IMG/VR virus record: IMGVR_UViG_3300024509_000050
Coordinates: 1-24,671 of that record
Source of the DNA: a virus
Reading direction: 5' to 3' (one strand)
Length of the DNA: 24,671 nucleotides
In this document: positions 1,053 through 7,155 of the stretch, one piece after another
How the letters are laid out: each line of letters begins with the position of its first letter
Position numbering within the stretch: the first letter of the stretch is position 1
Program-made: the position numbers and the translations under genes
Notes under the pieces: generated by a model
What the model was told of the DNA's origin: nothing
The model's input: the letters and a program-made list of their open reading frames with translations, nothing else
Database searches by the model: none

Positions 1053-3320
1053 TTAGCTTTGTACACTATAAATTCTTTCCTGGACGTCCACACTGTCGCG
1101 CAGATATCGTAGAATTTGTTCGTTTTGTTGAGTTTGCTTTTCTAATAGACTTGTCAGTGCGCTCATATCTAGATTAATTGGAATTTTTCCGCCGTTGGGT
1201 AGCGGTATTACTGCTTCTGGACCAGCCTCACCAGCAATGCTGGGTGAATTTACTACACCACCAGATGCTTTTTGTGGAAGGTCGGGAATTTCTAATTCTC
1301 GGAATCTACCCGCTGCGCCAGATCCACCGCTAAACCCACGGGTTGGCTCGCGGGGGCTAGCCCTGTTACTAGGCTCCGCGGCTTCCCGCAACGACATACC
1401 TTTTAGTGTTTGCTCATTTGCAGACTTTATGGAAGCATAAAGATCGGGAAAAAGATCTTTAAAACCTTTTTTAACAAAATCTATCAGCTCAAGGAAACCG
1501 TTTTCCAGTTTCTTAAGCATACCTGAAATACTAAAATCTTTAATATTAAGTCCACCGCCGTCAGCAAGAGCTCCAGTATAGTGCTGCAATGCTGCAATTT
1601 GACGCCTTAATTCTTCGTTCAACTTATCCACAAACTTAGGCATCTGGGCTACGATGCCAGTTTCCAATTGTACTCTTAGTGCCTGCCCTGCTGTTTCTAT
1701 GGCAGCAATCTGAGCATTTAATCTACCAGCACCTTTTTCAGTTTTGTCAATGTTTGCTTCTATATTTTTAGTTTCTATACCAGCAAGGCCCAATTGGAAC
1801 TGTCGTTCTTGCATTAACAGAGTATTAGCACCACTAAACTCACCAAATAGATTACCAGCTCGACTCATTGCGCTCTGTTGCTCAGTGATAGCCTGATCCT
1901 GTTTAGCCATTTGTTCATAGAGAGCATCAGCCTGTGCAATATTGCCCTTCTTGTAGAGCTCACCAGCCTCGTAGAACATACGCTGATATTCTGCGCTCTT
2001 CTGACTCAGTGCCACTGCTGCATCTCCCACCACTGCACCATTTGCAAAGAAACTGTTCATTGCACTAGCAAACAACGGACCTTTCTTAGTAAGGCTGGCT
2101 GTCATATTTTCTGTGAACTCGGTTGTTTCCCTGGCGTTTAAACCCAGTGAACGTGCAGTACGTAATAGTTCATCCTGGAAGGCTAGATTTTCCATCTGCT
2201 TGCGCTGCTCATCCATTTTCTTTCTAGCATCATCACCAGTTATATCAGCAATTATCTTTAAATCACGAGCATATTTTTGTGTCAGTGAAGCAACTTCCTT
2301 GGCATCCAGTTGTTTACCCAGTCTACCAGCATCGGCTATGACCTGTGCTGATATACCATAAATTTCTTCTGTATTGTATCCCAGGCGACGCAGACTCTCC
2401 TGTTGTTGCTTGGTCATTGCCTGGCCAACATCTGCTAGTTTTTTTATACCACCAGTTATACCTAGGCCTGATTTAGCTAGTAGAGCTTGATTTTGTGTGA
2501 CAACCTCACTCATCTGTTTGACTGTCAGTCCGGCACGATGTGATTGTGTAGCTAGTTCATCTATGCCACTGGCAAAATTGGCACCAGATTTAGTTATATT
2601 ACGATAGCCATCAAGTAGTTGCTGAGCCCCCTCGGCCATAATCTCATTGGCCTTGGCCTGTAGTTCAGCATTTCTTTTCTGAACCATACCAAAGAATTCA
2701 GCGATGCCACCAATGGCCAAGGCTGCTATTCTTAATGCTGTGCCCAGTCCCGGCAGGAAGGCTAGAGTTTTCATCATACCACCAAATACATTGGCTAGGC
2801 CCGCGGCTTCTTCTGCTGCAATACGTAGTTGACGATTCATACCACTGACAGCTATCTTGATGCCACTGGCACCACCCTGTATAGTGGCGATCTGATCTAG
2901 TATAGCGTCAGCCTGCATAAAATACAGATCTACGTAGAGTTTGCCTAGACTTAGTAGACTGGTGCCCAGTGCCTGACCAGTTAAATTGAGTCTTTGCTGC
3001 GTCTGTATGGCGCTCTGTTGTGCCACTATTTGTTGTATGTAGGATTTTTTCTGGGCATCAGTTAGACCAGTGTTTTCCCTGATGGCCTTGGCCTGTCTGC
3101 CTAAGGCACTGTAGGCCTCATCCAGACCCATTTCACCTGACTCGAGCCCGTCTTTAAAATTTTTAAACCATTTTTCAACATCTTCTTTTTTAGCACTCTT
3201 GGCCATAGTCATATTAAGGCCCTTGAGGTTTTTAAATAACTTATCTACCTCGTCAGCACTTACACCCAGCTTCTCGGCCATTTTTTCTACGGCTTCACGC
3301 CATTTTTCGTTTTCATCCAT
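1053..3320 (-). CDS. Tail tape-measure protein
   Basis: The tape-measure protein fills the tail lumen and sets tail length during tube polymerisation; T4's counterpart is gp29 (590 residues). This product has 755 residues, which at about 0.15 nm per residue would suit a tail near 110 nm. It is dominated by long Ala/Gln/Lys/Glu-rich helical stretches. A strongly hydrophobic segment at about residues 177-212 (LAFLPGLGTALRIAALAIGG) could insert in the host membrane during DNA delivery. Close to the C-terminus is GEAGPEAVIPL, a motif common at the end of many phage tape measures. It starts at ATG 3320. A minus-strand AATAAATA at 3375-3382 is a plausible late promoter. It is divergent from the gp26-like gene, which probably encodes its chaperone. 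Sequence similarity to T4 gp29 itself is not obvious by eye; the assignment rests on composition, motif, size and context. Confidence 0.85.
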   Translation of the reverse strand: MDENEKWREAVEKMAEKLGVSADEVDKLFKNLKGLNMTMAKSAKKEDVEKWFKNFKDGLESGEMGLDEAYSALGRQAKAIRENTGLTDAQKKSYIQQIVAQQSAIQTQQRLNLTGQALGTSLLSLGKLYVDLYFMQADAILDQIATIQGGASGIKIAVSGMNRQLRIAAEEAAGLANVFGGMMKTLAFLPGLGTALRIAALAIGGIAEFFGMVQKRNAELQAKANEIMAEGAQQLLDGYRNITKSGANFASGIDELATQSHRAGLTVKQMSEVVTQNQALLAKSGLGITGGIKKLADVGQAMTKQQQESLRRLGYNTEEIYGISAQVIADAGRLGKQLDAKEVASLTQKYARDLKIIADITGDDARKKMDEQRKQMENLAFQDELLRTARSLGLNARETTEFTENMTASLTKKGPLFASAMNSFFANGAVVGDAAVALSQKSAEYQRMFYEAGELYKKGNIAQADALYEQMAKQDQAITEQQSAMSRAGNLFGEFSGANTLLMQERQFQLGLAGIETKNIEANIDKTEKGAGRLNAQIAAIETAGQALRVQLETGIVAQMPKFVDKLNEELRRQIAALQHYTGALADGGGLNIKDFSISGMLKKLENGFLELIDFVKKGFKDLFPDLYASIKSANEQTLKGMSLREAAEPSNRASPREPTRGFSGGSGAAGRFRELEIPDLPQKASGGVVNSPSIAGEAGPEAVIPLPNGGKIPINLDMSALTSLLEKQTQQNEQILRYLRDSVDVQERIYSVQS

Positions 3321-3392: not shown

Positions 3393-4262
3393 ATGGCTAA
3401 TTCTCGTGTAGTAACACCTGCAAAAAATACTGTTATAGATAACCCACTTAGTGGGCATTTTAGGCAGGCCGCAGTCTATCTTAAGCTTCCCAGCGGTGGT
3501 GAACACTGGCCTCAGGGTAGTTTGGAAATGCCACCTGATGGGCAGCTACCCATCTATCCAATGACTGTTCAAAATGAAATTACTTTAAAAATGCCCGATG
3601 CACTGTTAACTGGCGCCGCAGTGGTTGATGTAGTTCAAAGCTGTTGCCCCTGCATAAAAGATGCCTGGAAAATGCCCAACATAGATGTAGACACTATATT
3701 GATGGGTATTAGAATTGCCAGTTACGGAGAGAATATGGAGGTCAGCACTGTCTGCCCTAATTGTAAGACAGAAAGCAACTATGACATACCTCTCTACAAT
3801 GTAATTAACAGCATTAAAGCGCCTGACTACACTCAGGCCTATCAGATTGGCCAGCTGGAATTTGTGTTTAAGCCCCAAAACTATCAGAGTCTAAGCGAAC
3901 TAAATCTTGCTAATTTTAGTGAAGCTCGTGTGGCACAGGCCTTCCAGGACGATGATATCACTGACGATCAAAAGAAAAAAATTGCCGAGGAGCATCTTTT
4001 AAAATTAGTAGAGCTTAATCTCACAATGCTAGCTGGTAGCACACATAGTATAACCACTCCCGAGGGAGTCGAAGTCAGTGACACAAAATTAATAATGGAT
4101 TTTTATCGTAATGCAGATATGAATACTGTGCGGGAAGTACAGGAACTGGTCAGTGAATTAGCCAAACAGGGTAAAACTCCTGATCAGAAAATCCAGTGTA
4201 TGGAGTGTGGGCACAACTATGATACCCCTGTGGAGTTTGACTATAGTACTTTTTTCGGCTAA
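3393..4262 (+). CDS. 26: gp26-like baseplate hub/tail assembly protein
   Basis: This is a 289-residue protein of the T4 baseplate (gp26) type, longer than T4 gp26 (208). An upstream in-frame TTG at 3381 is open, but the ATG at 3393 is preferred; a weak GGA lies nine bases before it. Three cysteine clusters suggest metal binding: CCPC near residues 84-87, CPNC at 121-124, and CMEC at 269-272 close to the C-terminus. The segment between the first two (MPNIDVDTILMGIRIASYG) is the part most typical of the family. Its neighbour on one side is the tape measure; on the other is a small ORF in the -1 frame, reached through a slippery heptamer just before this gene's stop. That arrangement resembles lambda G/G-T chaperones, so the protein may chaperone the tape measure rather than, or as well as, being a hub part. 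The family call is firm; the chaperone role is inference. Confidence 0.82.
   Translation: MANSRVVTPAKNTVIDNPLSGHFRQAAVYLKLPSGGEHWPQGSLEMPPDGQLPIYPMTVQNEITLKMPDALLTGAAVVDVVQSCCPCIKDAWKMPNIDVDTILMGIRIASYGENMEVSTVCPNCKTESNYDIPLYNVINSIKAPDYTQAYQIGQLEFVFKPQNYQSLSELNLANFSEARVAQAFQDDDITDDQKKKIAEEHLLKLVELNLTMLAGSTHSITTPEGVEVSDTKLIMDFYRNADMNTVREVQELVSELAKQGKTPDQKIQCMECGHNYDTPVEFDYSTFFG
4250..4256 (+). other. Candidate -1 ribosomal frameshift site (T TTT TTC)
   Basis: Read in the gp26 frame, the end of the gene is ACT TTT TTC GGC TAA. The heptamer T TTT TTC fits the X XXY YYZ rule for simultaneous -1 slippage exactly in the zero frame. Slipping moves ribosomes into the frame of the downstream 4268-4489 ORF and past the gp26 stop. 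A Shine-Dalgarno-like GGAG at 4232-4235, 14 bases upstream of the heptamer, could stimulate slippage. No convincing downstream stem is seen by eye. The downstream frame is closed by TAG at 4244-4246, just upstream, so the usable overlap is only a few codons and contains the heptamer. Confidence 0.6.
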
Positions 4263-4267
4263 GGCTT

Positions 4268-4489
4268 TTGCTGTTAACTCAGGCTGAAGATATCAAGGAA
4301 TTCACTGATAGTCTAGAACGCCAAGCAAAAGCCCTAAAAGAAGAAATTGTTAGAATATGTTGGTGGATGCGAGGTAGTATCAGCTACACTGAAGCCCATA
4401 TGCTGAGTCCTCAGGATCGCGACCTCATAGGTAAGCTTATATCCGAAAATCTAGAAGCTAGTAAAAAAGTAGGACAACCTATATATTAA
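4268..4489 (+). CDS. Small T-like tail assembly chaperone extension downstream of gp26
   Basis: This 73-residue ORF has no ATG start; the first usable codon is TTG at 4268, with AAGG three bases upstream. It is helical, and its core (CWWMRGSISYTEAHMLSP, then DLIGKLISENLEASKKVGQPIY) resembles a small protein I associate with the position after gp26 in marine T4-like phages, but I cannot place it precisely. It lies in the -1 frame relative to gp26 and begins six bases after the gp26 stop. It could be made as a separate protein by reinitiation from TTG, or as the C-terminal part of a gp26 fusion of about 365 residues through the T TTT TTC site at 4250-4256. The second option would parallel lambda gpG-T, where the T part links the tape measure to tail-tube subunits. 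It might also be compared with T4 gp51, but it is much shorter. Coding is likely; the mode of expression is inference. Confidence 0.65.
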   Translation: MLLTQAEDIKEFTDSLERQAKALKEEIVRICWWMRGSISYTEAHMLSPQDRDLIGKLISENLEASKKVGQPIY

Positions 4490-4497
4490 CCATCTTG

Positions 4498-4516
4498 AGA
4501 CTTGCTACGCAAGTCT
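4498..4516 (+). repeat. 8-bp perfect hairpin after the gp26 operon
   Basis: AGACTTGC, loop TAC, GCAAGTCT forms a perfect inverted repeat nine bases after the stop at 4489. It directly abuts the next hairpin (4517-4541), which carries the U-tract. It may be part of a tandem terminator or protect the 3' end of the transcript. Confidence 0.7.
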
Positions 4517-4549
4517 GTTATCTTCGCTGGCGCTCGATAACTTCTTTTT
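4517..4549 (+). terminator. Rho-independent terminator of the gp26 operon
   Basis: GTTATC pairs with GATAAC (4536-4541) around a 13-base, partly GC-rich loop. The stem is followed immediately by TTCTTTTT. This is a typical intrinsic terminator for plus-strand transcripts and sits 28 bases after the small ORF. On the minus strand the stem is not followed by a U-tract. Confidence 0.65.
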
Positions 4550-4631
4550 ATTCCATCACAGTGATTTTATTCTAGATTAATTTATTTCTTAATCCTATTG
4601 CTCTTGGTATTCCGACAGATCCTTCAGCCAT

Positions 4632-4654
4632 AATTTGCCCGATACGGGCAAATT
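4632..4654. repeat. Perfect 10-bp inverted repeat
   Basis: AATTTGCCCG, loop ATA, CGGGCAAATT. Both arms match exactly, and an outer GCC/GGC pair lies two bases out on the left. There is no U-tract on either side, so it does not look like a simple terminator. Confidence 0.8.
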
Positions 4655-4792
4655 GGCAGAGTCTTCCGACGAGTCCGGACACAGCCTATGGTTGGAAGAG
4701 CTAGTATAATATACTGGGAGGCGGTTGACCTGTACCCCCACTACTCTCGCCTTTGCACTATCAACGGTACCTTCTCAGTCACAACCATACTG

Positions 4793-4822
4793 CAACGAGA
4801 AAGCTCAGGTTGTCTCTTTTTC
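4793..4822 (+). terminator. Possible plus-strand terminator inside the structured region
   Basis: CAAC-GAG pairs with CTC-(AG bulge)-GTTG around the loop AAAG, and the stem is followed at once by TCTCTTTTTC. An alternative outer pairing is ACAACC (4781-4786) with GGTTGT (4808-4813). This would end a short plus-strand RNA; on the minus strand there is no matching U-tract. Confidence 0.4.
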
Positions 4823-4916
4823 ACAGAGCCTGAATCATTTATGCCTAGAGCGGCACTTACTTTACTGGCACCCAAGATCCGCTGGCAACGAGCCTTACCT
4901 CGGCTAGCTCAATGGG

Positions 4917-4933
4917 GGTAGGACACTCCTACC
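4917..4933. repeat. 7-bp perfect hairpin beyond the nuclease gene
   Basis: GGTAGGA, loop CAC, TCCTACC. On the minus strand it lies 11 bases after the stop codon at 4945, where an operon-ending structure would be expected. It is followed there by CCC rather than a U-tract, so it is at best a weak terminator or an RNA 3'-end structure. Confidence 0.6.
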
Positions 4934-4944
4934 AACTGGGCCTG

Positions 4945-5502
4945 TCAAGCGCACAATGTTTTAAATTGTGCAGCGTTTAATTCAAAAAATTTGTCCTGGG
5001 ACATTAGTACCCAGGTGCCCTTGTGGGCAGTCTGATAGATAAAATGATTGGTAAAACTAAGATTTGACGTGGTGTCTGTGATGTCCTGAGAATTATCCCT
5101 TGACTTGGTGTCTGCAGAATTAATCTGAAATAATATGTATCGACCTTTTCTGTTAAACTTCATAAAAATAATATTGGCGTCACCGGGATCACCAGCATCT
5201 AAACACTGATCTATCCAGTTGTCCAACTGTTTTACGCTGCCAGCAAAGAGTTGATGAAAAGGTAAATCTGCGTAACTCTTGCATTCGGCATTAAGACGAG
5301 GAAAACTCTGTCCGGGCACAATATCGCCTTTAAAGCTTCTAATCTGCCCTTCGTGTAGTACTTCCTTGCGTCGGGAGTTTGAACCTCCCACATAGGCACC
5401 TGACCCGGGTGCTCGAATAAATGTTTCTCCGTAGAGTGCAGTTAGAAATTGAGCTACCTCGCGTTCAAAACTGTTACCTTTATTCTTACTGGGACTGGTC
5501 AT
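4945..5502 (-). CDS. PD-(D/E)XK nuclease, Holliday-junction-resolvase-like
   Basis: This is a 185-residue protein with the layout of a small PD-(D/E)XK nuclease. GNSFEREVAQFL (residues 9-20) gives the N-terminal helix with a conserved Glu; RAPGSGAYVGG (30-40) follows. The catalytic set is then KGD at 58-60 and ECK at 73-75, that is D60, E73 and K75, which coordinate metal and activate water in this superfamily. Archaeal Hjc-like resolvases share the GxxxERxxA...R..GSG...D...ExK order, and a DNA-branch or restriction-type nuclease is possible. It is the last gene of the minus-strand recombination operon, 40 bases after the radical-SAM stop, with no clear Shine-Dalgarno. Context with gp46/gp47 suggests work on recombination or replication intermediates. 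T4 uses gp49 (endonuclease VII, a different fold) for that job, so this could be a replacement. Fold call is good; exact substrate unknown. Confidence 0.75.
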   Translation of the reverse strand: MTSPSKNKGNSFEREVAQFLTALYGETFIRAPGSGAYVGGSNSRRKEVLHEGQIRSFKGDIVPGQSFPRLNAECKSYADLPFHQLFAGSVKQLDNWIDQCLDAGDPGDANIIFMKFNRKGRYILFQINSADTKSRDNSQDITDTTSNLSFTNHFIYQTAHKGTWVLMSQDKFFELNAAQFKTLCA

Positions 5503-5542
5503 ATGCTGTTTACTTATCTAATATTCTAGTGATTCTATTTTT

Positions 5543-6646
5543 TTAATTGGTAAGCCAGCCCACAGCATAGTCCTGATCTACTAGTTCTCTGCTACATTTC
5601 TGACTGCATTCCACCCAGCTCTTACTGGCATCCTGCCAGCCCTGGCTACACTTGCTCCAGAGCGGATCTGCTATAATTTCCTGAAAGGAACGATGATTTA
5701 AATTCATTCTATCGCGATATTTCGCAAAGAAACTGTCTTGCCATTGTATAGTCTTATCAGCATAAGTCAAACTATTATAGGGGAAACTTACCCAACTACA
5801 GGGAAATATAACTCCCTCGGCATTGACATAGACTCCACGATTGCCTATTTCGCACATAGGAACTATGGGATAGTTCTCATATTGTTTTTTAATGGCTCTA
5901 TATTTTTCCTGATTGACGGCAAGATATTCACCATTGTCAATGATACGGCCACTTAGATTTATTAACTGACGTTCATAACGATGACTGCTGCTGATAAACT
6001 CTGCACGTGGTTCCAGCGGATCTTGTTCACCACCGTAGGCTTCACCGTACTTACTACCAAACTTAGTGCTTAGAGTAAGTTGTAGACCATCCATAGACAG
6101 GCTTCGAGCTAGCTGTTTTATATCATCTAGTCTGTCCTGATTAAAACTGAACACAATGGTGGCCCAGTTTAAATGTACTTGTTTATTAACTTCACGTATA
6201 CTTTTTATTCCCTCTAGTATACTGTCAAAGTCTGTGTTTACTCTATATAAATTATTACTGGCTTGATCGTAGCCATCCACACTAAAGTTAATAGTATCAC
6301 GTTCATCTAGCAATTGTGCTAGGTCACGCCACCATTGTGGTCGTCTGCTACTGCCATTTGTTATGATAAACAAATGAATTAGGGGATTAGTCTGTTTAAT
6401 ATATTGTACAATTTCTAAAAATTCTTTACAGTAGATAGGATCACCAACATCACCGCACATAGTAACTCTACGTACCTGATTGGTCAACATATCCACTGTA
6501 AAAAACTTTTTAACAAACTCCAGAGTCATATTTTTATTCAACCAGGGAGTATCTGGATGCTCTGTGCGAGGGCAACGTGGGCATCGAGCCACACAGACTG
6601 CGCTGGGTTCCAGATGCCAATGATAGAATTGCCAGTTTATAGCCAT
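5543..6646 (-). CDS. Radical-SAM protein with SPASM-like cysteine-rich C-terminus
   Basis: This is a 367-residue protein. Cys18, Cys22 and Cys25 form the CxxxCxxC motif (CVARCPRC) that holds the 4Fe-4S cluster cleaving S-adenosylmethionine. The barrel continues with MCGDVGDP (63-70, GGE-like position), ITNGS (95-99) and FSVDGYD (121-127). The C-terminal part contains C265, C283, C333, C347 and C351, with GVYVNAEGVIFPC around 271-283, the pattern of a SPASM/twitch domain holding auxiliary Fe-S clusters. Such enzymes often modify peptides, proteins or small carbohydrates. The substrate here is unknown, and no precursor peptide is visible next to it. The ATG at 6646 lies inside the last codons of the dehydrogenase gene (10-base overlap), so the two are translationally coupled. 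Radical-SAM family is firm; the role is not known. Confidence 0.88.
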   Translation of the reverse strand: MAINWQFYHWHLEPSAVCVARCPRCPRTEHPDTPWLNKNMTLEFVKKFFTVDMLTNQVRRVTMCGDVGDPIYCKEFLEIVQYIKQTNPLIHLFIITNGSSRRPQWWRDLAQLLDERDTINFSVDGYDQASNNLYRVNTDFDSILEGIKSIREVNKQVHLNWATIVFSFNQDRLDDIKQLARSLSMDGLQLTLSTKFGSKYGEAYGGEQDPLEPRAEFISSSHRYERQLINLSGRIIDNGEYLAVNQEKYRAIKKQYENYPIVPMCEIGNRGVYVNAEGVIFPCSWVSFPYNSLTYADKTIQWQDSFFAKYRDRMNLNHRSFQEIIADPLWSKCSQGWQDASKSWVECSQKCSRELVDQDYAVGWLTN

Positions 6647-7155
6647 AGGTCCACTCTCTTAATCCTTGGGTCAAATATAAACTTAGACATACACTCAGCA
6701 GCTTCCGTGACAGGCATCTTGGTAATTTCTAAATTTCTAATCAAGTCTGTGTCCAGTGGACCGGGATTGATTAATTTTATATCACACTGGCTGTTAACCA
6801 TTTTTTCCCAGGCTTTTTCCAGTGCCTGTTTGTGCAAGCGATAGGGCCAGTATTCAGAGTCTAGATGTTGTTCACTGCGGGGGAAGTAACTGGCTCTGCT
6901 TCCTATATTAATAATGTGTTTGTTGGCATCTAGATGCCAGTGAGAATAAAAATATTCCAGTACCTTGAGTTGACCTAGGCCATCATAGGCGTTATTGATT
7001 ACCATATCATAGTCTAAAAAATTGCTTGCCCAGGTATCAACTTCCAGTATATCGTAGCCAGTGGATCTACTCACACAGGTAATTGTGTGCTCTAGTTCCA
7101 GTAAATTAAGCAGTCCTTGTGCCAGACCTGATGTGCCCGTGATTAAAATCTTCAC
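6637..7155 (-). CDS. Short-chain dehydrogenase/reductase-like protein (compact)
   Basis: This 172-residue protein has the short-chain dehydrogenase pattern. The N-terminal nucleotide-binding turn is TGTSGLAQG (Gly7, Gly10, Gly14), followed by MVINNAYDG (51-59, the NNAG position). Ser86 lies in IINIGSRAS, and the catalytic pair Tyr105/Lys109 is in YRLHK, with NPGPLDTDL further on. It is clearly shorter than the usual 230-250 residues, lacking much of the C-terminal substrate region, so it may rely on a partner. It starts with GTG, overlapping the gp46 stop (GTGA), and its own end overlaps the radical-SAM start. This tight coupling implies the three are made together, and that the dehydrogenase and radical-SAM protein act in one pathway. 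Reaction and substrate cannot be read from the sequence. Confidence 0.78.
   Translation of the reverse strand: MKILITGTSGLAQGLLNLLELEHTITCVSRSTGYDILEVDTWASNFLDYDMVINNAYDGLGQLKVLEYFYSHWHLDANKHIINIGSRASYFPRSEQHLDSEYWPYRLHKQALEKAWEKMVNSQCDIKLINPGPLDTDLIRNLEITKMPVTEAAECMSKFIFDPRIKRVDLWL

Follow-up and report, generated by a model that had tools for sequence, protein, structure and literature searches.

The window analyzed here comprises 24,671 nucleotides (nt), positions 1–24,671 of the IMG/VR virus record IMGVR_UViG_3300024509_000050, a fragment of a T4-like phage. The sequence indicates that its gp26 gene and the small open reading frame (ORF) that follows in the −1 frame very probably form a tail assembly chaperone pair of the lambda G/G-T type, made by programmed −1 frameshifting (the lambda mechanism is described in PMC5009743). 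A preliminary description, made from the letters of the window, had proposed this equivalence. It is supported by a conserved slippery heptamer, a conserved −1 relation and the lack of a strong start for the second ORF.

The gp26 gene (3393–4262, + strand) starts with ATG at 3393, ends with TAA at 4260–4262 and encodes 289 residues. PF12322 (E 1.4e-17) scores the protein at 64.6 bits against a curated cutoff of 24.5, which places it in the T4 gp26 (T4_baseplate) family, and phrog_150 also matches (E 7.7e-19). This short product would be the chaperone N-domain (TAC-N) and the equivalent of lambda gpG. The gene ends AGT ACT TTT TTC GGC TAA. This arrangement sets the slippery heptamer T TTT TTC (4250–4256, + strand) in the X XXY YYZ register, followed by a 6-nt spacer, GGCTAA (4257–4262, + strand), that includes the gp26 stop. 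The −1 frame of the same strand is closed by TAG at 4244–4246 and open from 4247 to a TAA at 4487–4489 (ORF 4247–4489). Its post-slip codons (4256–4486) encode 77 residues that would constitute the chaperone C-domain (TAC-C), equivalent to lambda T and resembling the tail of gp51, as suggested by selection and by register with the gp51 C-tail. The predicted fusion has 288 + 77 = 365 residues with the junction STFF-RLRLL. The −1 ORF has no ATG ahead of its W-M-R-G segment, the earliest codon that could serve as its start is TTG at 4268, and family profile searches returned no match to it. Recomputation reproduced the gp26 end, the positions of the heptamer, the TAG and an upstream GGAG, the −1 frame of an ORF without ATG, and the fusion of about 365 residues given in the preliminary description.

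Most ribosomes would translate gp26 to its TAA to give the 289-residue short chaperone. A minority would be paused by a stem starting 6 nt downstream of the heptamer and slip back by one base on T TTT TTC, with Phe-tRNA re-pairing from TTT TTC to TTT TTT. These ribosomes would continue in the −1 frame and add 77 residues to yield the 365-residue long form. By analogy with lambda gpG/gpGT, the short form would coat the tape-measure protein and the extra domain of the long form would recruit tail-tube subunits. The slippage, its efficiency and the chaperone roles are what we infer.

Conservation of the heptamer and the −1 frame

The site and its frame, their conservation, the selection on the −1 ORF and a conserved RNA pairing can be read from the sequences themselves. 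Relatives were picked from IMG/VR contigs and isolated phages by gp26 similarity and mid-protein motif scans, not by the junction. A single alignment over all gp26 types was too diverse for scanning, and two narrower alignments were used instead. The resulting set of 166 distinct junctions spans Phosso, Atu_ph07, Cassandra, RaK2, 121Q, a Vibrio jumbo phage, SCTP-2, XacN1, RAS14, and Kyanoviridae and Methylophilales phages. Every junction carries an in-frame TTTTTTN (TTTTTTC in 162, TTTTTTT in 4), and in all 166 the −1 frame stays open for at least 58 codons beyond the gp26 stop, a stretch in which frames 0 and +1 average about six stops each. The codon preceding the heptamer ends in T at 166 of 166 junctions versus 95 expected, and none of the 103 other Phe-Phe pairs within the same gp26 genes is encoded by T TTT TTC. 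Heptamer and −1 relation, whose conservation the preliminary description had left to be compared among relatives, are retained down to about 20–30% gp26 identity.

The position of the site varies in some relatives. XacN1 and RAS14 have a TTTTTTT shift site 37–40 nt 5′ of the gp26 stop. In LR756511, a 595-kb uncultured phage with a gp26 relative, TTTTTTC lies about 70 nt before the stop, and the short form would gain an extra tail of roughly 20 residues from the late stop.

Past the overlap, the median ratio of nonsynonymous to synonymous substitution rates (dN/dS) of the −1 ORF is 0.057 in 47 independent relative pairs, and the ORF is under strong purifying selection. In the −1 product the FF is invariant, and the motifs MRGG and (D/E)R are conserved. 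Could this selected ORF be a separate gene, with no fusion made and translation initiated either independently or by reinitiation once ribosomes terminate at the gp26 stop? The TTG at 4268 lies just past the gp26 stop in the window, and 64 of 82 cyanophage loci have an in-frame ATG shortly past the heptamer, where annotators call a separate small gp51. In the window clade, however, an ATG occurs before +30 nt in only 16 of 84 loci, a start with a Shine-Dalgarno-like motif is rare (14/84), and the conserved FFR-x-x-LL residues are located ahead of any possible start of the second ORF. A separate gene would leave the in-frame heptamer without a role, and the T4 gp51 protein corresponds physically to the fused form. 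We consider a separate gene improbable. The combination that the preliminary description had set against its own proposal, namely a second ORF in any frame, with a strong ATG/Shine-Dalgarno sequence and no heptamer, was not found in the window clade.

Pairing 3′ of the heptamer

Folding, a synonymous-codon null and covariation in relatives point to a stimulatory stem that was absent from the preliminary description. The predicted 5′ arm GGCUUUUGCU (4263–4272, + strand) begins 6 nt past the heptamer and pairs across a 51-nt loop with the 3′ arm AGCAAAAGCC (4324–4333, + strand). The 90 nt past the heptamer had a mean shuffle z of −3.26 in 74 window-type relatives versus −0.20 for control stretches of gp26. 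The synonymous-codon null held the −1 protein fixed and drew synonymous codons. By this measure the window had z = −3.06, with 0 of 100 draws as stable, and the mean z of 73 relatives was −2.95.

The 59 aligned sequences exhibit double changes at two pairs, from T-A to C-G at columns 18–83 (12×) and from G-C to A-T at columns 21–80 (14×). The covariation score is above all 500 shuffles (0/500 reach it) and above every slid register, and the compensatory changes arose several times on the gp26 tree. Both double changes link the silent third position of Leu codons to a second position on the opposite arm, and protein constraint alone is therefore insufficient to account for them. In Atu_ph07 and XacN1, the 6-nt spacing is likewise followed by complementary arms, of different sequence; the XacN1 stem is a perfect 11 bp of unrelated sequence 6 nt 3′ of the shift site.

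The preliminary description had noted GGAG (4232–4235, + strand), 14 nt 5′ of the heptamer. As a stimulator, this motif was rejected. GGAG occurs within 25 nt upstream in only 7 of 84 window-clade loci, and because it is not conserved there it is probably incidental and not a stimulator. The conserved stem on the 3′ side fits this role better. The cyanophage-type loci (L022–L025 and L109–L188) have a Shine-Dalgarno-like purine tract 6–16 nt 5′ of the heptamer in 82 of 82 cases compared to a background of 6%, and the Glu codon at the tract is GAG in 69% versus 31% elsewhere. The tract is likely an internal Shine-Dalgarno stimulator. The annotated gp51 genes of Kyanoviridae (L022–L025) begin 50–90 nt past the gp26 stop and are truncated; the actual protein probably starts from the heptamer.

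The same features bear on whether the fusion could arise from an mRNA made by transcriptional, not ribosomal, slippage on the T run. There are six T in a row at the site and eight in Methylophilales and C48C1 phages. Six is short for slippage by a bacterial polymerase, the C at heptamer position 7 in 162 of 166 junctions holds the run at that length, and a conserved, covarying stem 3′ of the site, at the canonical spacing of 6 nt, is expected of ribosomal slippage. A transcriptional origin is accordingly very improbable. Least credible is chance or decay, in which the second ORF would be noncoding or a remnant with no product: the record of the window is fragmentary and no family profile matches the ORF, but this reading is already contradicted by the selection test, together with the −1 frames open at 166 of 166 junctions and the conserved residues of the product.

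Probable tape-measure neighbor, structure model and flanking DNA

The gene adjacent to and divergent from gp26 (1053–3320, − strand) encodes a 755-residue protein that is probably the tail tape-measure protein. Its C terminus has a GGVVNSPSIAGEAGPEAVIPLPNGG motif, which we take to be typical of tape measures, and a divergent gene occupies the equivalent place in RaK2, 121Q and Cassandra. In cyanophages, tape-measure profiles match the gene that follows gp51 (phrog_167, E 2.5e-12; phrog_1535, E 3.7e-8). The gene after gp51 in S-RIM12, annotated as an endolysin, also matches tape-measure profiles. The gp26 structure model has a predicted local distance difference test (pLDDT) score of 83.9 and its best viral structural matches are T4-like baseplate hub proteins; the gp26 sequence profile found no solved relative.

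Several results weigh against a frameshifted chaperone in the window. The support for slippage is indirect and comes from sequence. Comparison of the gp26 model to the PDB gave no convincing match and listed no known chaperone structure. Against a dinucleotide null, the signal of the window stem is modest (z = −1.25), and Cassandra and RaK2 have no 3′ structure signal in the synonymous-codon test. The window-type −1 profile matches the gp51 C-tail weakly (58.6%, E 9.5e-5), in the same register. The 755-residue neighbor, called the tape measure in the preliminary description, retains that designation as probable through its motif and conserved adjacency, but no tape-measure profile matched it in family profile searches.

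A long noncoding stretch (4490–4940) lies 3′ of the −1 ORF and contains several hairpins, such as AATTTGCCCG/CGGGCAAATT at 4632–4654. Its fold is more stable than shuffles (z = −2.65), and neither an Rfam family nor a phage DNA match was found for it. The first part, with the hairpins GACTTGC...GCAAGTC and GTTATC...GATAAC, is retained in the relative L002. The interval between a gp46-like gene and gp26 (4945–7155, − strand) encodes a PDDEXK_15 endonuclease, a radical SAM protein and a 172-residue ORF that has no Pfam match and looks like a short-chain dehydrogenase.

Chaperone genes of T4-like phages and lambda

T4 gp26 and gp51 are homologous by profile: in T4 and RB43 both proteins match phrog_150, and gp51 has an additional C-tail. 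T4 gp26 and gp51 are listed as hub assembly chaperones, and T4 gp51 is described as essential, of unknown function and absent from the final particle (PMC3004832), an absence that fits a chaperone role. Profile comparison shows the gp51 tail and the cyanophage −1 ORF to be homologous (97.2%, E 3.6e-11). In five Straboviridae genomes and RB43, gp26 and gp51 are separate genes and no heptamer is present at the gp26 Phe-Phe position; T4 gp26 keeps the Phe-Phe, encoded TTC TTT. Read most simply, these sequences suggest that Straboviridae may have exchanged frameshifting for two separate genes, one for each form.

The abstract of a 2022 study by Vladimirov, Gautam and Davidson reportedly names genes 26 and 51 and is said to describe frameshifting conserved in several T4-like groups. 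This study of the tail assembly chaperones of T4-like phages (Virology 566:9-15) is cited in PMC10885494 and PMC12846349, and the latter refers to it on −1 shift signals of the poly-T kind in the TAC-N genes of these phages. The window pair is not a first, since frameshifted chaperones had been reported from T4-like phages before. The window lineage and its covarying 3′ stem may be outside the coverage of that study. No description of the covarying stem or of lineage-dependent stimulators was found in the literature searched, and PRFect contains no myovirus, cyanophage, baseplate or jumbo entries.

T4 is the exception to G-T frameshifting among long-tailed phages (PMC5009743). A frameshifted gp26 would explain this exception, with T4-type phages using two genes for the short and long forms and the other sampled T4-superfamily lineages relying on a single gene in which the poly-T heptamer is fixed. 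It would also offer testable roles for gp26 and gp51 and correct many jumbo phage and cyanophage annotations. The lineages would provide a natural series for the study of frameshift stimulator evolution. On balance, we favor the view that the stimulator was replaced repeatedly within one homologous chaperone gene while the heptamer stayed fixed throughout. The window clade would use a covarying 3′ stem that encloses a loop of about 50 nt, sister lineages different stems placed at the same distance, and cyanophages an internal tract resembling a Shine-Dalgarno sequence; T4-type phages, in which separate short and long genes replaced frameshifting, would have no stimulator.

The window pair can be placed among three known systems. 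Kyanoviridae gp26 and small gp51 share the in-frame TTTTTTC or TTTTTTT and the −1 relation, but have the purine tract and shorter hairpins in place of the long-loop stem. T4 gp26 and gp51 belong to phrog_150, as does window gp26, but the two forms are separate, divergent genes without a heptamer. Lambda gpG/gpG-T are −1 frameshift tail assembly chaperones, the type to which the window pair is assigned; the window differs in its protein family (PF12322), its TTTTTTC heptamer, its covarying 3′ stem with the long loop, and a probable tape-measure gene that is divergent instead of downstream.
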